The notes under the pieces are model-generated. The model made no database searches. It was given only the letters and a program-made list of their open reading frames with translations, and was not told the DNA's origin. This document shows positions 46,827 to 55,434 of a DNA stretch of 64,000 bases, one piece after another. Source of the stretch: an uncultured Alphaproteobacteria bacterium (GTDB lineage: Bacteria > Pseudomonadota > Alphaproteobacteria > Rs-D84); the NCBI GenBank assembly GCA_946623825.1, contig CAMORN010000001.1, forward strand, positions 80,202 through 144,201, read 5' to 3'. Positions within the stretch are counted from its first letter, which is position 1. Every line of letters starts with the position of its first letter. Both the position numbers and the translations under genes were made by a program.

Positions 46827-46916
46827 GGATGGGTGGCAGAGCGGTCGAATGCGACGGTCTTGAAAACCGCTGAAGTCGCAAGGCTTCCGGGGGTTCGAAT
46901 CCCTCCCCATCCGCCA
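46827..46916 (+). tRNA. tRNA-Ser (anticodon TGA)
   Basis: 90 bases, class II with a long variable arm. Acceptor GGATGGG pairs with CCCATCC; anticodon loop CTTGAAA gives TGA; variable arm GAAGTCGCAAGGCTTC; T arm GGGGGTTCGAATCCCTC; discriminator G and encoded CCA. The last 14 bases recur at 47073-47086. Confidence 0.96.
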
Positions 46917-47264: not shown

Positions 47265-47507
47265 ATGATAAATTCTAAATATATACCTATGTATGTAAAA
47301 TATTTCTGGCAACCGTCAATGTCTTACAGATGTCCAGACAAACCATCGCCGGAACAAACAGAGGTAGAAAAAATACATGCCAGAATATTATGTTTGGATA
47401 CGCGTAAACGGAACGAATTATTCAAAATGATATCTGCAAATTATGAACTTAAAATTATAAAGAAAAAAACATTTTTATCTTTGGTTCAAAAAACAAAAGA
47501 AGACTAA
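47265..47507 (+). CDS. Hypothetical 80-aa protein
   Basis: Not recognised. AAAAGGA before the ATG and a strong terminator after it support a real gene. Basic C-terminal half (LDTRKRNELFKMIS, LKIIKKKTF), no membrane segment. First gene of the accessory region after tRNA-Ser. Confidence 0.6.
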   Translation: MINSKYIPMYVKYFWQPSMSYRCPDKPSPEQTEVEKIHARILCLDTRKRNELFKMISANYELKIIKKKTFLSLVQKTKED

Positions 47508-47537
47508 AAACACACACCCAAACGGGTGTGTTTTTTA
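47506..47537 (+). terminator. Terminator of the 80-aa gene
   Basis: ACACACCC-AAAC-GGGTGTGT followed by TTTTT. Confidence 0.88.
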
Positions 47538-47552
47538 TTCTGTTTATCATGA

Positions 47553-47580
47553 TTGACAAATTTGGTTTTTATGCTAAATT
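47553..47580 (+). promoter_or_regulatory. Promoter of the methyltransferase-like gene
   Basis: -35 TTGACA (47553-47558), 16-bp spacer, -10 TAAATT (47575-47580). Confidence 0.55.
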
Positions 47581-47607
47581 TACTTCACTATAAAAATGGA
47601 TAAATGT

Positions 47608-48411
47608 ATGAAACCAGATATTAAAACAGCAAAAGAATGTTTGGAAAATTGGGGTTTTTCAGAATATTCCAAGGCATATATTATGACAAACGAAGTTTTG
47701 CGTTTGTCTGTTAAAAACATTCCAACAAAATCTGATATTTTAACTGTTGCAGGTTCTGGGGACCATCCGTTGTTTTGTTTATTACGGGAACCGAAAAGTG
47801 TTGATACATTTGATGTTTCTTATAATGCGAAAGTGATTATGGATATAAAAACATCGGCTATCCCAAAATTGCCGTTTGCTGGATACAGAAATTTGCTGAA
47901 TGGTTTATACGAAGAGTATGATATCAAAGATATTTATGAATTACCTGAAATCATAAAAACTTTACCAGCAGAAGAACAAGAATACATAGAACAAATCAAT
48001 GGAAAAGGATTCATTCGTTCTGATATGACTTTGTTTTTCAGCCCTTATTTGTTTATGCAAAAAAAAGAATATGAACAAATCAGGAAAAGATTACATGGAC
48101 CGTTCAATTTTATATGGACCGATATTACATCATTACACGCTAAATTAAACAAGACATATGATTTTATGCATTTATCAAATATATTTGATTATATGGGTAT
48201 ACAAAAAATAATATATGTTTTGTCATCGTTGGTTCCGTATGTAAATAATGGTGGAAAAATATATTTTGAATATGGAATGAATTCTGAACCAAAACCAAAA
48301 AATTTCCATAATTTTTGCAGTGATGTTTCCAATAAATATAATCAAGAATTGAAATTCAGAGTTAAATATGACGGAAACAGAAAAAAATGTATATTGCAAC
48401 GAACAAGATAA
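47608..48411 (+). CDS. Rossmann-fold methyltransferase-like protein (DUF3419/BtaA-like)
   Basis: 267 aa from the ATG at 47608, which has GGAT upstream; an ATG at 47596 would add four residues. ILTVAGSGDHPLFCLLREPKSVDTFDVSYNAKV near residue 40-75 is a SAM-binding motif I/II pattern like that of DUF3419 and BtaA proteins, and the acidic FDVSYNA occupies the ribose-binding position. LSSLVPYVNNGGKIYFEYG matches a late motif. BtaA relatives make betaine lipids; substrate here is not known. Confidence 0.65.
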   Translation: MKPDIKTAKECLENWGFSEYSKAYIMTNEVLRLSVKNIPTKSDILTVAGSGDHPLFCLLREPKSVDTFDVSYNAKVIMDIKTSAIPKLPFAGYRNLLNGLYEEYDIKDIYELPEIIKTLPAEEQEYIEQINGKGFIRSDMTLFFSPYLFMQKKEYEQIRKRLHGPFNFIWTDITSLHAKLNKTYDFMHLSNIFDYMGIQKIIYVLSSLVPYVNNGGKIYFEYGMNSEPKPKNFHNFCSDVSNKYNQELKFRVKYDGNRKKCILQRTR

Positions 48412-48438: not shown

Positions 48439-48636
48439 TTAATGAGACAATGGGATTGTGCTGATTTGACGACCGTGTTCATCAAACACATATACCCAAT
48501 TACCACCGCGTGTTACGGAAACGGTTGAACCCGTGAATCCGTATAATTGTCCCGCGATAGTTGTTATTTGACGACCGGATTCGTCATAGACGTAAACCCA
48601 ATTGCTGCCTCTTTGTACTGCTGTTCCAATAGACAT
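48439..48636 (-). CDS. 65-aa protein made of two tandem NWVYVxDExGRQI repeats
   Basis: Not recognised as a named family. The ATG at 48636 follows AAAAGGAAAAAGCC and lies about 50 bases from the -10 of its promoter. Two near-identical units, RGSNWVYVYDESGRQITTI and RGGNWVYVFDEHGRQISTI, are separated by 15 residues (GQLYGFTGSTVSV). Each reads as a beta-hairpin with a DExGR turn, as in sheet-forming or ligand-binding repeats. Cytoplasmic (no signal). Its promoter carries the AGAC-N7-GTCT element shared with three other transcription units. Confidence 0.75.
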   Translation of the reverse strand: MSIGTAVQRGSNWVYVYDESGRQITTIAGQLYGFTGSTVSVTRGGNWVYVFDEHGRQISTIPLSH

Positions 48637-48689: not shown

Positions 48690-48729
48690 ATAATAATATA
48701 AAACATGAATCAGACAAAAATGGTCTTGT
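48690..48729 (-). promoter_or_regulatory. Shared promoter/operator element, copy 1 (65-aa gene)
   Basis: On the minus strand ACAAGACCATTTTTGTCTGA (48710-48729) contains AGAC-N7-GTCT. Its TTGTCT serves as -35 and is followed after exactly 16 bp by TATTAT (48690-48695). Confidence 0.75.
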
Positions 48730-48759: not shown

Positions 48760-50526
48760 TTATTCGCTGATGAATCCGCCAGATTGCATTTTCCACAATT
48801 TTGCATATACACCGTTTTTGCGCAATAATGCGGAATGCGTTCCTGTTTCTACGATTTTACCGCCGTCCAATACAATTAATTTATCCATATTGCGTAATGT
48901 AGATAAACGGTGGGCGATAACCAATGTTGTTTTGTTCTTGGATAATTTTGCAAAAGATTTTTGGATAACAGATTCTGTTTCACTGTCCAATGCAGAAGTT
49001 GCTTCGTCTAGTATCAATATAGGTGCGTTTTTCAAGAATGCACGTGCGATAGCGATTCTTTGCCTCTGTCCCCCAGATAATTTTATTCCGCGGTCGCCAA
49101 CAAAAGATTCGTATTTGTTTGGTGTTGATAAAATAAATTTATCAGCAGACGCGTTTTTTGCAGCGGTTTTAATTTCTGAATCTGTCGCGTTTAATTTTCC
49201 ATATTTTATATTTTCACGAATTGTTCGGTTGAACATGGTTGAATCTTGTGGAATAAAACCAATGTTTTCGTGTAAAGATTTTTGAGTTATTGTGCGAATA
49301 TCTGTTCCGTCTATCAAAATAGAACCATTTGTTGGGTCATATAAACGCATAATCAAATTGACCAAAGTTGTTTTGCCCGCACCAGATAAACCAACAATAC
49401 CGACTTTTTCACCCGAATTTATTGTGAAATTCAAATTTTTCAGAACCATATCTTTGTTGTATTTAAAACTTAAATCTTTGATTTCAATTATTGCTTTTTT
49501 GATTTTTAGGTTTTTTGCACCGTCAATATCTGTGATAGATATCGGTTGAATTAAGGTGTCATATGAACCAATTGCCTTGCCCAATTTTTCAATAAAGTTT
49601 TTGATTTCCATTATCAAACTGAATGATACAGCACTGATTCCTGTGAAAATACTAAGCGCAAAAGAAATGTCTGCGATTGTTGATTGACCCGTTGAATACA
49701 TATAACCACAAACCAATATCAAAGCAGTCATTCCAAACGCGTCCATTGCGAAATTACCCGGTCCCCAAAAGAATCTCGATATTGCATGTCCGGTGCGTGC
49801 AGTCTTTTCATAATCACGACGGAAAGGTTCTGCACATTTTTGTTCATATTCAGAATGTGCGAAAGTTTTAACGGCTATGAAATTTGATAATGCGTCCAAC
49901 AGGCGTCCATGCAACATATTGAATTTTTGTGATGCTTTTGCAGATGCTTTTAGTGTGCTTTTAACCCGATATATTCCCCATAATATACGCGCCAATGCCG
50001 CAATTATAATAACCACCAGATATTGCCAACCAATTACAAATAAACCACCGATTGCCAATAAAAATGCGCCAAGCACCGCCAATAAATTCCCAAACACCGC
50101 ACCAATCATTTCATAAAAACCAGTGGCAACACCGTCTATTTGCGAATTTATTTTCCCCGGCATGGAATTGGCATAAAAATCAATACTCTGTTTATATACA
50201 TATTCGTATAAATCGCGTGAAATATGATTGTAAGAACGATATTTAATTGTGTTATCAAAAACAACCCAACGCATAATTGCGCCACCAACCAATATCGAAC
50301 GCAACATTAAATAACCAACAGCAATAGGGACTATTTTATCAAACCCAAGCGATATAGGATTGTTTTCCAATGTAGCGACTATCATTTTAATAAAGAAAGC
50401 CGGTATAACCGTATGACCTGCTGTATCAAATATTGAAAATAATGTGAATACAAAAGGCCATCCTTTCGCATAACGAAATAAATTCTTAAAATAAAAAGAT
50501 AAAACTGATTTTGGGAATTTCATCAT
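48760..50526 (-). CDS. MsbA-like ABC exporter (fused membrane and ATPase domains)
   Basis: 588 aa. Six membrane helices in the first ~320 residues, then an ATPase domain with Walker A GLSGAGKTT near 376, signature LSGGQRQRIA near 483 and Walker B ILILDEATSALD near 500, plus the H-loop IAHRLST. Homodimeric exporters of this type move lipids, drugs or peptides. The start (ATG ATG at 50526) has no ribosome site; a TTTATGATATAAT block lies seven bases upstream, and the shared promoter element lies about 40-75 bases upstream. It is the only transporter in the regulon, so its cargo may be linked to the neighbouring small proteins. Confidence 0.9.
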   Translation of the reverse strand: MMKFPKSVLSFYFKNLFRYAKGWPFVFTLFSIFDTAGHTVIPAFFIKMIVATLENNPISLGFDKIVPIAVGYLMLRSILVGGAIMRWVVFDNTIKYRSYNHISRDLYEYVYKQSIDFYANSMPGKINSQIDGVATGFYEMIGAVFGNLLAVLGAFLLAIGGLFVIGWQYLVVIIIAALARILWGIYRVKSTLKASAKASQKFNMLHGRLLDALSNFIAVKTFAHSEYEQKCAEPFRRDYEKTARTGHAISRFFWGPGNFAMDAFGMTALILVCGYMYSTGQSTIADISFALSIFTGISAVSFSLIMEIKNFIEKLGKAIGSYDTLIQPISITDIDGAKNLKIKKAIIEIKDLSFKYNKDMVLKNLNFTINSGEKVGIVGLSGAGKTTLVNLIMRLYDPTNGSILIDGTDIRTITQKSLHENIGFIPQDSTMFNRTIRENIKYGKLNATDSEIKTAAKNASADKFILSTPNKYESFVGDRGIKLSGGQRQRIAIARAFLKNAPILILDEATSALDSETESVIQKSFAKLSKNKTTLVIAHRLSTLRNMDKLIVLDGGKIVETGTHSALLRKNGVYAKLWKMQSGGFISE

Positions 50527-50562: not shown

Positions 50563-50602
50563 ATTATAAAACTGAATTTTAACCAGACAAAAATGGTCTT
50601 GT
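50563..50602 (-). promoter_or_regulatory. Shared promoter/operator element, copy 2 (ABC exporter)
   Basis: On the minus strand ACAAGACCATTTTTGTCTGG (50583-50602). The -35 TTGTCT is followed after 16 bp by TATAAT (50563-50568). Confidence 0.75.
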
Positions 50603-50688: not shown

Positions 50689-51942
50689 GTGATGAAAATT
50701 TGTATTTATAGAGGAACAAATGAAATAGGTGGAAATTGTATAGAATTATCAAGCAATAAAACGCGTATATTATTGGATGCGGGAATACCGTTGATTTCAA
50801 TGGAACAGAAAGATGTTCCAATCAGCGAATATAAAGTGCCTGTTGTCGGATTGTATGAAAACGAAACACCAACTGTGAATGCAATATTTATAACGCATTG
50901 TCATCCCGACCATTATGGGTTATTGCCGTTGGTGAATAAAAAAATACCTGTTTACATGTCAAAAACATTACATAAAATTTTGACCGAGATTCAACCTTTG
51001 TTGCCGGGTGGTTTTGATATATCGCATCTTGATATTCGTGATATAGACGCAGATGAATCTGTGAAAATTGGTAATATGACAATAACTGCGCGTGCGGTTG
51101 ATCATGCACCGTCTGCATATGCTTACGAAATAGATGATGGTAAAAAACGTGTCGTTTATACAGGTGATATTCGTTTCCATTCAAACCAACGTATGAAATC
51201 GTGGGCATTGGCACGCAAATCTAAAAATCCAGATTATTTGATTATGGAAGGAACGCGTCTTTCCCGTCCGGAATTAACAGAAAAATATCCAACCGAAGAA
51301 TCTGTGTCGCGTGGTATAACCGATTTAATTAAAGATTCTGGCAAGGTGACTTTTATAACAATGTCTTCGCAAAATATGGACCGTGTTGTTTCTGTTATCA
51401 AGGCGTGTAACAAGGCAAAAAAGACATTTGTTATTGACCCTTATACCGCTTCTTTGTTTGATATCTATCATGAATTATCACCAAAATTTCCGTTGTTGAA
51501 AGATTTAGATAACGTGCGAATTTATTTTGGTATGTCTGATGGTATTGTGGAACGTATGAAAAAATCAGGTTTGTTTTATAAACACAAATCTAAAAAAATT
51601 ACTGCAAAAGAAATTGCACAAAATCCAGATAGATATCTTATTAAAAACAACTTGAATTTGACGAGATATCTATTGAATAATATTGTCAAAGATTATGATT
51701 TTATTTATTCTATGTGGCATGGTTATTTAACAAGACAGCATACATGGGATAAATTCAAGAATCATATCATTGAAATTCATACATCTGGGCATGCTGCGAT
51801 AAAAGATTTGCAGAAATTTGTAAAACAGATAGATGCAAAAAACTTGATTCCAGTTCACACAGAATGCAAAAATGATTATGAAAAAATATTTGGCATAAAA
51901 AACATTATTGTTTTAGACGATAATGAACAGAAAAGGCTTTAA
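50689..51942 (+). CDS. Metallo-beta-lactamase-fold hydrolase, RNase J-like
   Basis: 417 aa. NEIGGNCIEL at the start, the metal motif THCHPDHYGLLPLV (HxHxDH near 68-73), YTGDIRFH near 157 and the C-terminal IHTSGHAAIKDLQKFV plus LIPVHTE near 364-392 follow the RNase J order, including the beta-CASP-like His motifs. At 417 aa it is well short of true RNase J (about 550), lacking the C-terminal domain, so it is a paralogue. It is expected to act on RNA or DNA. It heads a four-gene operon with a nuclease-like protein and a WYL regulator. AGGTGAAGTG precedes the ATG. Confidence 0.8.
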   Translation: MMKICIYRGTNEIGGNCIELSSNKTRILLDAGIPLISMEQKDVPISEYKVPVVGLYENETPTVNAIFITHCHPDHYGLLPLVNKKIPVYMSKTLHKILTEIQPLLPGGFDISHLDIRDIDADESVKIGNMTITARAVDHAPSAYAYEIDDGKKRVVYTGDIRFHSNQRMKSWALARKSKNPDYLIMEGTRLSRPELTEKYPTEESVSRGITDLIKDSGKVTFITMSSQNMDRVVSVIKACNKAKKTFVIDPYTASLFDIYHELSPKFPLLKDLDNVRIYFGMSDGIVERMKKSGLFYKHKSKKITAKEIAQNPDRYLIKNNLNLTRYLLNNIVKDYDFIYSMWHGYLTRQHTWDKFKNHIIEIHTSGHAAIKDLQKFVKQIDAKNLIPVHTECKNDYEKIFGIKNIIVLDDNEQKRL

Positions 51943-51944
51943 TT

Positions 51945-52880
51945 ATGACTCGTGCTTTGAAACTAGATTTTTATAATGAATTTAAGAATGGTTGCTTCAC
52001 ACCTTTGATAGATATGTTGAATGTAAAAAATGGAAAATATAAATCAAGATTCATGATGAATTTGCGGGGAAATCGTGTAATTGTTTATTACAAGGGTGTT
52101 GTTGCGGTAACAATATATGATAAAACAAAACGAAATAAATCTTATGGGATTGAAGTGCAAAAAATGTATGAAACCGGGGATTCTAGCGGATACAGAAAGT
52201 TTTATAAATCAGAACAAGAATTATCCAGTTTTCATTGGGAACAATTTTTATCAAATATTGCAGATGGTATAGATGCGTATGATAAAAAAGATAATTCTGA
52301 AAAAGAAGTCCAACAAAGAATCTGGTATGAAAACAATGTGGCCAGAAACGCAAATTCAACAGATTATTTTATTGTTGATACAGAATACAAAGATAAAAAG
52401 GGTGGTCGTTTTGATTTAATCGCTTTTTATTGGCCGGCGGGTGAAAACAAACAGGGACACAAAGAAAAACCTAAAAAAATATCTGTTATAGAATTGAAAT
52501 TCGGTGATAATGCGGTTGGCGGTTCTTCTAATGAACAAACTGCAACATTATCTACGCATTTACAAGATTTCAAGAATTTTGGGTTTTCTGATGATTTCTT
52601 GAAAGATATGACATGTGTATTTTTTCAATTATATGATTTAGGTTTAATAAATATTAAATTTGGCAAAAAGGTAAGGGGTGTTGAAAATTTAATATCTTCA
52701 ACAGATGTAAAACAAATGATGTTTATATTGGCAAATTATAATCAAAAATCTAATAATCTCGCTAATCAACTGAATAAAATGAAAAAACAAATATTGCCAG
52801 ATGATAGAGAGGTTGTATTTGCAACTTCTTCATTTATGGGGTATGGTTTGTATGATGTTGGTATGAAACACGATTTATAA
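51945..52880 (+). CDS. PD-(D/E)XK nuclease-like protein
   Basis: 311 aa, not a family I can name. The central part has the PD-(D/E)XK pattern: a helical Glu in EVQQRIWYENNVAR near 125, GRFDLIAFYW near 155, then ISVIELKFGDNAVGG near 180-194 giving D...ExK. The N-terminal domain (about 1-100) looks like a beta sheet substrate module. It starts two bases after the RNase J-like stop, so the two proteins are made together. Confidence 0.65.
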   Translation: MTRALKLDFYNEFKNGCFTPLIDMLNVKNGKYKSRFMMNLRGNRVIVYYKGVVAVTIYDKTKRNKSYGIEVQKMYETGDSSGYRKFYKSEQELSSFHWEQFLSNIADGIDAYDKKDNSEKEVQQRIWYENNVARNANSTDYFIVDTEYKDKKGGRFDLIAFYWPAGENKQGHKEKPKKISVIELKFGDNAVGGSSNEQTATLSTHLQDFKNFGFSDDFLKDMTCVFFQLYDLGLINIKFGKKVRGVENLISSTDVKQMMFILANYNQKSNNLANQLNKMKKQILPDDREVVFATSSFMGYGLYDVGMKHDL

Positions 52881-52892
52881 AAAGAGGGCAAC

Positions 52893-53906
52893 ATGGCTAA
52901 AAAACAAAAAGGTTCAAGAGACGATTATGCTTTGTTTGGCAGTATGTTGGATGTGGCAAAAGCATTATCAAGACCAGGAAACGGAATCCCATATGAAGAA
53001 GTCATGGATATAATGTCTTGCTCTCATAAGAAAGCAGAACGCGTGGTTCAATTTTTTCAAAAAAGATACCCTTATAATTTTGAAGAACATCGTGATCCAA
53101 TGGTCCCACAAAAAAAATTATTTAAATTAGATGGTGCAGATTGTGTTCCATTAGATTATATAAATGATGCTGAAATGTTTGCATTAAATGGTTCTACTAA
53201 AAAAATTAAAGACGACGCGATAAAATTACCATTGGTTTCGTTGGAATATAAATTAAACAGATTACTTGAAAGAAGAAAAACAGTTGCCCAAATGAATGAT
53301 ATGGAAGGTATTTCTATGGGTGAAGCGGTTGTTTCTGGACCGCGTATTAAAAACAAAAACGATGACGAAATTTTAAGAAAATTGCGCAAGGCTATTTTAG
53401 AAAACAAGGTTATAAATTGTTCTTATTACAGTGTCAGCGATAAGAAAAAAAAGAAAATAACAGTATGCCCATTGGGAATATTGTGGGGAAATTGGAATAA
53501 TTATTTAGTGGTTCTTGAAAATGGCAAGACTGCGCAAAAGATTTTATCTAATATCAGTGATGTAAAAATCACAAACGAAGAATTCAGATCTGGTAATTTT
53601 TCAATAGATGAATATGCCAAGAAAAGTTTTGGTGCGTATCATACACCAAACGGTCCTTTTGATGTGGAATGGTATGTCAGCCCAGATGCAAAAGAGAGTG
53701 CTTTGAAATACGAATTTCACCCAGACCAAAAGGTAATACCACATACAGACGGTTCTTTGACAATTAAATTTAAAAGTGATGGTTGGCGCGAAATGTCTTG
53801 GTATTTATTCAGATGGAGTGGTGCTATCGTCCCAATCAAACCAAAAGCATTGGTTGACGAATACAAAAACATAATCAAAAAAATTTCTGATTCTGTTAAA
53901 TTGTAA
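52893..53906 (+). CDS. WYL-domain transcriptional regulator
   Basis: 337 aa. The N-terminal ~75 residues form a winged helix-like DNA-binding unit (ALSRPGNGIPYEEVMDIMSC, KKAERVVQFFQKRYPY). The WYL domain spans about 155-225 (AILENKVINCSYYSVSDKKK, CPLGILWGNWNNYLVVL), and a WCX-like C-terminal module follows (FDVEWYVSPDAKESA, LTIKFKSDGWREMSWYLFRWSG). WYL proteins sense ligands, often nucleic acid, and control many phage-defence loci. Third in the operon (12-base gap). It is the natural candidate to bind the AGAC-N7-GTCT elements nearby. Confidence 0.88.
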   Translation: MAKKQKGSRDDYALFGSMLDVAKALSRPGNGIPYEEVMDIMSCSHKKAERVVQFFQKRYPYNFEEHRDPMVPQKKLFKLDGADCVPLDYINDAEMFALNGSTKKIKDDAIKLPLVSLEYKLNRLLERRKTVAQMNDMEGISMGEAVVSGPRIKNKNDDEILRKLRKAILENKVINCSYYSVSDKKKKKITVCPLGILWGNWNNYLVVLENGKTAQKILSNISDVKITNEEFRSGNFSIDEYAKKSFGAYHTPNGPFDVEWYVSPDAKESALKYEFHPDQKVIPHTDGSLTIKFKSDGWREMSWYLFRWSGAIVPIKPKALVDEYKNIIKKISDSVKL

Positions 53907-53922
53907 AATATAGGAAATTGAA

Positions 53923-54675
53923 ATGTCTTTGAATCAAAAAATAAAATCGCAAATATTGAATTTTATTAAACAACCAATTCCACAAGATATAGATATTGTA
54001 AAAAAATCTATACCTGTACCTTTTTTTGGAAATATTGAAAAAGCACGTGTGGCAACCATTTCTATAAATCCATCTAATAAAGAATTTGAAGATAAAAATC
54101 ATAAAACTTTGATTAAATCTAAAAAAAGATTTTCAGACAGAGAGATTTTAAATGCGACAGACAATGATGTTTTAAATGACGAGCAAAGATTGACAGTTTT
54201 TGATTCTTTGATAAATTATTTTAATCAAAAAAATAATAATTATTATCACCCATATAAAACATGGTTTAATTGGCTTGACAGATATGTAGGTGATATGTTT
54301 GGTTGTTCTTATTATGACGGGACAATGGTAAATTTAGACATTTATCCATGGGCGACAGCAATTAAATGGGGTAATATAGACCCAAAAACAAAAGATAATA
54401 TATTAAAACAATATAGTTTATTAAAAGACATATTGTTGGATAAAGAGGCTTTGTTTGATTATGTTTATATAAATGGCGCAACTGTAAAGAACCAGATAGA
54501 AAAATATCTTGGGGTTACAATTCCAGAATATAGTTGCGGTCAATTATCTATATATAATTACAAAATGCCAAATGGAATTATTCTTGTCGGTTCCAGTTGT
54601 TATATACAAAATTCTCATAAGACAAGTGAAGAATTAAAAAATCTTCATGCAATAATAAAATCAAGCATCAAATAA
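53923..54675 (+). CDS. Uracil-DNA-glycosylase-superfamily-like protein
   Basis: 250 aa. PVPFFGNIEKARVATISINPSNKEF near 30-57 matches the first strand and loop of uracil-DNA-glycosylase-fold proteins (GxNPS). LDIYPWATAIKWG near 140 and IILVGSSCYIQNSH near 225-238 fit the later strands, the last carrying a His at the position of the catalytic HPSP loop. Activity on uracil is not implied; the superfamily includes several divergent proteins. Last of the four-gene operon (16-base gap after the WYL gene). Confidence 0.6.
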   Translation: MSLNQKIKSQILNFIKQPIPQDIDIVKKSIPVPFFGNIEKARVATISINPSNKEFEDKNHKTLIKSKKRFSDREILNATDNDVLNDEQRLTVFDSLINYFNQKNNNYYHPYKTWFNWLDRYVGDMFGCSYYDGTMVNLDIYPWATAIKWGNIDPKTKDNILKQYSLLKDILLDKEALFDYVYINGATVKNQIEKYLGVTIPEYSCGQLSIYNYKMPNGIILVGSSCYIQNSHKTSEELKNLHAIIKSSIK

Positions 54676-54725
54676 AATACAACCCCTTTGCGGATTTTTT
54701 ATTCATTTTAAAATATTAATTTTAT

Positions 54726-54765
54726 ACAAGACCATTTTTGTCTGGTATATGTTTTATATTATAAA
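54726..54765 (+). promoter_or_regulatory. Shared promoter/operator element, copy 3 (131-aa gene)
   Basis: ACAAGACCATTTTTGTCTGG (54726-54745). The -35 TTGTCT (54738-54743) is followed after 16 bp by TATAAA (54760-54765). Confidence 0.75.
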
Positions 54766-54802: not shown

Positions 54803-55198
54803 ATGAAACAATACACATACGAAGAAAACAAAAAAATTGCATCTATACGTCATAGCAATACAAAATATGATAAATATGATGTTTTTTATCATGTCTTTCT
54901 GGGTGAAAGAAAAAAATTAAATTGGAATTGTGCGCAATTTAATAATTCAGAAATGGATTTATTTGATTTTGTATCTGCAACAAATCAAATTGAATCTGAT
55001 GTGAATTTGTACAGACGCGCAAACCAAAAAAAGTTTATTGAAAAAAGTATCATCGATTTACGCGAAATTTATCCAGATGAAAGTAAAAATTTTCTTAAAA
55101 ATATAGCGCATAAAATGTTGAAAAAAACATTGCAAACACAAGAAAAAAGAAATCTGGCGCGCGTAAAACCTTGCAGACTATATTTTCAAGAAGACTAA
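54803..55198 (+). CDS. Hypothetical 131-aa protein of the shared-promoter regulon
   Basis: Not recognised. AAAGGGGTAAAAA precedes the ATG. Soluble, strongly basic, largely helical (RRANQKKFIEKSIIDLREIYPDE, KMLKKTLQTQEKRNLARVK); the basic end suggests nucleic acid or ribosome contact. It has its own copy of the AGAC-N7-GTCT promoter, and the next copy follows immediately after its stop. Confidence 0.7.
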   Translation: MKQYTYEENKKIASIRHSNTKYDKYDVFYHVFLGERKKLNWNCAQFNNSEMDLFDFVSATNQIESDVNLYRRANQKKFIEKSIIDLREIYPDESKNFLKNIAHKMLKKTLQTQEKRNLARVKPCRLYFQED

Positions 55199-55207
55199 AT
55201 ATTATAT

Positions 55208-55247
55208 ACAAGACCGTTTTTGTCTGGTTGTGTATATATAATATAAA
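55208..55247 (+). promoter_or_regulatory. Shared promoter/operator element, copy 4 (53-aa gene and AAA+ ATPase)
   Basis: ACAAGACCGTTTTTGTCTGG (55208-55227), one base different from copies 2 and 3. The -35 TTGTCT (55220-55225) is followed after 16 bp by TATAAA (55242-55247). Confidence 0.75.
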
Positions 55248-55272: not shown

Positions 55273-55434
55273 ATGCCAAGATATACTTTTCAATGGGACG
55301 GTTCTGATGTCGTTATTTACACTTTGCCAAGTCGTAATTATTGGCGTCGTGTAAAGTGGGCAAAAGATGCCTATCATGACGGAAAAGCAATTGTCGTTAT
55401 TGGTAATTGCAACGAAGTCATAAGATTTGAATAA
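55273..55434 (+). CDS. 53-aa protein upstream of the AAA+ ATPase
   Basis: Not recognised. AAAAGGGGTAGAT precedes the ATG at 55273, and the AAA+ gene starts 23 bases after the stop, so they form one unit. Sequence features: YTFQWDGSDVVIYTLPS, an aromatic/basic segment (RNYWRRVKWAKDAYHDG) and a beta-like end (AIVVIGNCNEVIRF). A small adaptor, substrate or toxin-like partner of the ATPase is possible; none is shown. Confidence 0.65.
   Translation: MPRYTFQWDGSDVVIYTLPSRNYWRRVKWAKDAYHDGKAIVVIGNCNEVIRFE

Follow-up and report, generated by a model that had tools for sequence, protein, structure and literature searches.

The window analysed here is a stretch of 64,000 nucleotides from an alphaproteobacterial assembly (0.93 Mb, 76% complete) with close relatives among metagenome-assembled genomes from rumen and gut. 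At positions 50689 to 54675 it carries four open reading frames (ORFs), all on the plus strand and separated by gaps of 2, 12 and 16 bases, which encode a metallo-beta-lactamase (MBL) protein of the beta-CASP nuclease type, a PD-(D/E)XK-like protein, a WYL regulator and a protein of the uracil-DNA glycosylase (UDG) superfamily. Our preferred explanation, to which we give a probability of roughly 0.58, is that this operon belongs to a modular island regulon which is inducible by single-stranded DNA (ssDNA) and equipped with candidate anti-phage effectors; protection against phages would be the most likely purpose of the island. The explanation draws on the gene identities, the operators and their spacing to the -10 boxes, the exchange of a cassette between sister genomes and the recurrence of a nuclease pair. 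The initial annotation of the locus as a single operon that brings a WYL sensor together with a base-excision fold and two putative nucleases was confirmed in gene positions and gaps, and its domain calls hold (MBL with RMMBL and WYL with WCX by Pfam, the UDG fold by modelling), while its interpretation is partly supported. It did not contain the two links developed below, namely DriD as the nearest solved relative of the WYL protein and the resemblance of the UDG-like protein to the Brig glycosylases.

A DriD-type regulator and its probable operators

The best solved match of the WYL protein was DriD (8TP8), with E 4.6e-29 over nearly the full length from the single sequence and E 2.5e-49 from the profile, as against only E 0.7 for PafC. 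The homology to DriD of Caulobacter crescentus (PDB 8TP8, 9PFV) spans the wHTH, 3HB, WYL and WCX domains, and judged by sequence the WYL gene encodes a regulator of the DriD type; no second WYL protein was found in the window assembly. DriD is an ssDNA-activated DNA-damage activator in Caulobacter. It is a core checkpoint regulator, whereas the WYL gene of the window is an accessory island gene within a nuclease operon.

A 15-bp operator, RGACCNTTTTTGTCY, occurs at four exact sites in the window genome, all within the island (Table 1), so that the shared-promoter regulon proposed earlier is real. It has the form GAC-N7-GTC, in most cases followed by a -10 box after 11 bp, and like the DriD site (consensus ATACGAC(X)7GTCGTAT, at a fixed distance from the -10 box) it overlaps the -35 region (PMC12340889). 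The published driD promoter contains, on the other strand, ATACGACCGTTTCTGTCG, and the window counterpart is ATACAAGACCGTTTTTGTCT (promoter from PMC12340889). When 132 genomes of the genus were scanned, 28 exact sites were found in 17 genomes. Eight of them are situated between an AAA+ gene and a WYL gene that diverge, a Caulobacter-like layout in which the regulator faces away from its target across one box, and one neighbours a WYL gene that has a different partner. Three sites each stand before the small beta protein, between the ABC transporter and MBL genes, before FtsK-like genes or operons, and before the 131-aa gene or the AAA+ leader. One precedes an unlinked glycosylase gene by about 340 bp (genome G008), and at least three further sites resemble chance. 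The sequence TANNNT was present exactly 11 bp downstream in 17/28 sites (background about 4% per position), compared with an average of about one site in 28 at other spacings; a secondary peak at 13 probably reflects the overlapping TATATT. With a relaxed -10 definition the count was 20 of the 28. We name the WYL protein as the probable regulator of the island because the operator geometry, the -10 spacing and the divergent layout match those of DriD, and as the control switch of these genes a DriD-type regulon is well supported by such sequence features.

PafBC of mycobacteria is also a WYL activator that answers to ssDNA and has its site upstream of the -10 box; unlike the window regulator and operator, it is a heterodimer with a non-palindromic motif. 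An assignment of the operator to the PafBC -26 motif was considered and dropped, since DriD fits the protein sequence, the palindrome and the promoter position. At the one DriD-like locus found in other alphaproteobacteria, no match to the small beta protein was seen as the gene divergent from DriD.

In the mechanism that we propose, the WYL activator would sense ssDNA arising from damage, replication stress or infecting DNA; by analogy with DriD, the regulon is probably ssDNA-activated. With ssDNA as its ligand the protein would bind the GAC-N7-GTC boxes overlapping the -35 regions and would activate, rather than repress, the promoters of the small beta protein, the ABC transporter, the AAA+ ATPase and probably the MBL operon. 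The products would then target nucleic acid through the putative MBL nuclease and its PD-(D/E)XK-like partner, together with swappable cargo. Here that cargo is a Brig-like glycosylase, which would cut modified bases from invading DNA and leave abasic sites.

The MBL protein and its PD-(D/E)XK-like partner

The MBL ORF is 417 aa long if a GTG at 50689 is used as start, but the ATG at 50692 is likelier because homologues start with MKICIYRG. Among 16 homologues from the genus, the catalytic motif HxHxDH, further H and D ligands, the HxSGHA motif and the C-terminal P-x-H are invariant, and among solved structures 2az4 (EF2904, E 3e-28) is the nearest. These motifs and the RMMBL domain are common to RNase J and EF2904-type beta-CASP proteins. 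In contrast to RNase J, the window protein comprises only about 417 aa, scores 76 bits against an RNase J model with a cut-off of 400, and is partnered by a PD-(D/E)XK-like protein; a separate RNase J-like ORF of about 616 aa elsewhere in the genome agrees with its earlier description as a short paralogue. Homologues with 24–29% identity are carried on plasmids of Ochrobactrum, Rhizobium, Cereibacter, Sphingomonas, Cupriavidus, Butyrivibrio and Prevotella, several of them near restriction or mobile genes, and a search of viral contigs gave no match. MBL-fold nucleases with a role in defence are known from Hachiman, AVAST and Lamassu, in their trypsin-MBL modules, but those enzymes are ComEC-like and work with a protease (PMC12799240), unlike the beta-CASP protein of the window.

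The 311-aa protein carries a D...(D/E)xK motif (GRFD...IELK), and its family is homologous to the ~320-aa neighbours of the plasmid MBL genes (hhalign 93%, E 3e-7), in which RxD...FWEAK is invariant. Motif residues are changed or lost in three relatives (loci L034, L036 and L046), and the single-sequence structure model, with a confidence score (pLDDT) of 43, was too poor to use for the fold. The original call of a putative PD-(D/E)XK nuclease is based on the conserved motif and the profile-profile homology.

A PD-(D/E)XK-like gene stands beside the MBL gene in 14/16 loci of the genus and in 9/13 loci outside it, plasmids included, counts which pool the 311/320-aa type with a second type of about 240 aa. 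Because all loci were gathered via homology to the window genes, these counts are a measure of co-occurrence rather than an unbiased census. The MBL and PD-(D/E)XK-like genes are a recurring pair. The second, ~240-aa family has a YLLELKR motif and is encoded upstream of MBL genes (L034-L038, L040, L041, L046, L047, and also L108 6136-6969); several of these are followed by ankyrin proteins whose FtsK-like C-termini are degenerate. As had been supposed, no named system was found that covers the set. PADLOC-DB 2.0.0 gave no match for the MBL, 311-aa or UDG protein, generic matches for the WYL protein and matches to IetA models for the AAA+ protein, for which no IetS partner was seen, and a literature search for a system of MBL and WYL found none.

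An exchangeable cassette beside a recurring pair

Comparison with sister genome G001 shows 93% DNA identity up to position 52888 and 91% from 54720. The segment in between, with the WYL and UDG genes, is exchanged in G001 for a WYL gene whose product is 52% identical and an FtsK-like motor, and the MBL and PD proteins are 93–97% identical between the two genomes. Across the 29 MBL loci examined, the UDG gene adjoins the MBL gene in one. The WYL and UDG genes are thus an exchangeable cassette with the UDG gene as cargo, and the four genes do not make up a fixed system of four parts. A single dedicated machine, in which the MBL, PD-(D/E)XK, WYL and UDG proteins act jointly on the same substrate, had been implied by the initial annotation and would suit the tight gaps and the common direction of the genes. 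We hold it to be highly improbable in view of the rarity of UDG beside MBL, the swap of WYL and UDG next to a nearly unchanged MBL-PD pair, and the membership of glycosylase relatives elsewhere in other modules. What recurs jointly from the predicted set are the MBL, PD-type and WYL genes, and two further recurring members had been overlooked, namely the AAA+ ATPase and the ~65-aa beta protein. Homologues of the former are part of the island at L032, L040, L041, L043, L048 and L133, and those of the latter stand beside WYL or MBL genes at L032, L033, L040, L041, L048, L110, L111, L114 and L118. The order is WYL, small protein-PD-MBL in G326 (L118) and WYL-AAA+-MBL-PD in G223 (L133). The glycosylase gene lies beside WYL/AAA+ genes in two of its five loci in the genus (the window and G021), an arrangement that would arise by chance with a probability roughly estimated at about 2e-4.

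A Brig-like candidate glycosylase

The model of the 250-aa protein (pLDDT 91) has a UDG fold and matches the family-4 UDG 4zby with Z 11.4 and a root-mean-square deviation of 3.7 Å over 173 aligned residues. This is the same top structural match as that of Brig1, whose best DALI match is the S. tokodaii UDG too (PMC11078745); Brig1 and Brig3 are anti-phage DNA glycosylases of the UDG superfamily. We compared the catalytic and pocket residues of Brig3 (F31, N50, P51, S52, E55, Y97, W100, F101, H125 and D127, taken from PMC13160076) with 40 relatives. Equivalents of N50, P51, S52, E55, W100, F101 and D127 were present in 40/40, that of H125 in 39 and those of F31 and Y97 in 38 each, and the N-x4-E and Y-x2-W-F spacings of Brig3 are identical in the family. 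The likeness consists in the fold and the published residue list. On sequence and model, the protein is a candidate Brig-like glycosylase, without a profile match to a repair UDG family. Its placement in a WYL regulon sets it apart from Brig1 and Brig3. A single-sequence search of the genome contigs gave no match, an alignment-based search of the same contigs gave 44, and the phage records searched gave none.

In 21/47 cases the relatives of the glycosylase stand beside a thymidylate synthase homologue and an aGPT-PPlase of clade 3, in 20 of these also with an ImmA-like protein, and the module occurs on a Leptospira plasmid and on the viral/phage-like contig L057 as well. Across phyla it consists of the thymidylate synthase homologue, the Brig-like glycosylase, the aGPT-PPlase clade 3 protein, an ImmA/HTH protein and a small HigB-like protein. 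Both aGPT-PPlase and UDG are among the defence system domains predicted by DefensePredictor (PMC13092281). In four distant genomes an unnamed protein of ~290-305 aa with an FPHPGxEH motif adjoins the glycosylase; its size and position are reminiscent of BapA of Brig3. In G021 the glycosylase forms a fusion with DUF6994 (L048 6238-7812), and in G110 the two are neighbours (L065 8751-9596).

Defence, repair or cell death

Several observations weigh against the preferred explanation. The 28 operator sites compare with about 18 for a reversed-pattern control, a modest excess, and therefore position and spacing carry the case more than number. At 50585 the operator is oriented towards the ABC transporter and is followed by TATAAT after 16 bp rather than 11, and in the MBL direction no clear -10 box was seen; nor was a convincing DriD-like operator present beside MBL loci outside the genus in the regions checked. 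The window glycosylase is the sole one among the 40 relatives with Asn (N137) for the base-stacking His (H125), a difference also from Brig1 and Brig3, although it retains all other listed residues. In the region of the inserting asparagine N225 of Brig3 the family has a loop N-x-Q-S-S, for which the window reads SSCYIQNS in an ambiguous register. With such a divergent loop and the His-to-Asn change, its substrate or activity may be different. Moreover, a role in DNA repair is equally compatible with a DriD-type regulon.

The main rival is accordingly a regulon for repair of DNA damage, in which a DriD-type activator answering genotoxic stress would induce base excision by the glycosylase, the nucleases, the AAA+ ATPase and the efflux-like ABC transporter and protect a LexA-less host. 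DriD is an SOS-independent damage activator over nuclease, recJ and dnaG genes (PMC12340889), the DNA-binding domain of LexA was not found in the 24 genus genomes tested (it was detected in 13/16 other members of the same order), and the ABC transporter belongs to the regulon. However, the genes are patchy in the genus (MBL in 16/141 genomes, glycosylase in 5/141), the cassette is exchanged, homologues occur on plasmids near restriction genes, and the glycosylase has an E55-type pocket as in Brig3 and no repair-family match; we consider this rival unlikely. A further alternative is an abortive module, in which severe damage or infection would be followed by breakdown of host nucleic acid by the induced nucleases, with the regulator keeping them off at other times. 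Tight regulation would suit toxic nucleases, and among the genes that DriD activates is bapE, whose endonuclease product acts in an apoptosis-like manner (PMC12340889), but no immunity partner was identified and a Brig-type enzyme reportedly lets the host survive, which makes cell death an improbable function.

Features of the island and its border

The coordinates of all features are collected in Table 1. A tRNA-Ser gene marks the island border. The segment beyond it encodes a DUF3419-like protein in the window and has other content in the sister genome, and this arrangement, observed over 46827-46916 and 47265-48411 of the window, suggests that the border region is an insertion hot spot.

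Table 1. Genes, operators and related loci (window coordinates unless a locus is named)
Feature	Position	Strand	Basis or remark
MBL / beta-CASP nuclease-like protein	50692..51942	+	416 aa from ATG; Pfam Lactamase_B_2 and RMMBL
PD-(D/E)XK-like partner, 311 aa	51945..52880	+	GRFD...IELK motif; homology to plasmid ~320-aa MBL neighbours
DriD-type WYL regulator (wHTH-3HB-WYL-WCX), 337 aa	52893..53906	+	8tp8 match; Pfam WYL and WCX
UDG-superfamily, Brig-like candidate DNA glycosylase, 250 aa	53923..54675	+	Model fold; Brig3 residues
Exchangeable cassette WYL+UDG	52889..54719	.	WYL and FtsK-like genes in sister genome G001
~65-aa two-repeat beta protein, recurring partner	48439..48636	-	Homologues beside WYL/MBL elsewhere
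ABC transporter, divergent from MBL operon	48760..50526	-	Operator in promoter (50585)
131-aa protein with own operator	54803..55198	+	ORF list, operator scan
53-aa ORF, operator on one side, AAA+ gene on the other	55273..55434	+	Sequence
Tandem AAA+ ATPase, 703 aa	55458..57569	+	Pfam AAA
DriD-like operator AGACCATTTTTGTCT, small beta protein promoter	48712..48726	-	
DriD-like operator between ABC transporter and MBL operon	50585..50599	-	
DriD-like operator	54729..54743	+	-10 TATATT at 54755-54760
DriD-like operator AGACCGTTTTTGTCT	55211..55225	+	TATAAT 11 bp downstream
Thymidylate synthase-glycosylase-aGPT-PPlase module	L031 6910-10743; L057 4909-9237		Also L075, L078, L080-L083, L085, L086, L088-L090, L092, L094-L096, L100-L102, L105
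FPHPGxEH protein	L066 8794-9675; L068 8735-9622; L070 8766-9683; L076 9095-9967		

Implications

We suggest tentatively, at somewhat less than even odds, that the island represents an undescribed, horizontally moving regulon. In it, a DriD-type, ssDNA-activated WYL protein would sense infection or damage on behalf of the MBL-PD pair, the AAA+ ATPase and the ~65-aa beta protein; the effectors beside the regulator (Brig-like glycosylase, FtsK-like motor or ankyrin-FtsK protein) would be interchangeable. The MBL and PD-(D/E)XK-like pair recurs on plasmids from different phyla, and PADLOC offers no model for it. The operator, for its part, can be used to locate unlinked effectors in tiny gut genomes in which LexA was not found. 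The regulon ties DriD, an activator type that senses ssDNA independently of SOS, to candidate defence effectors, and this may be a route by which infection or damage turns on base-excising and nuclease immunity.

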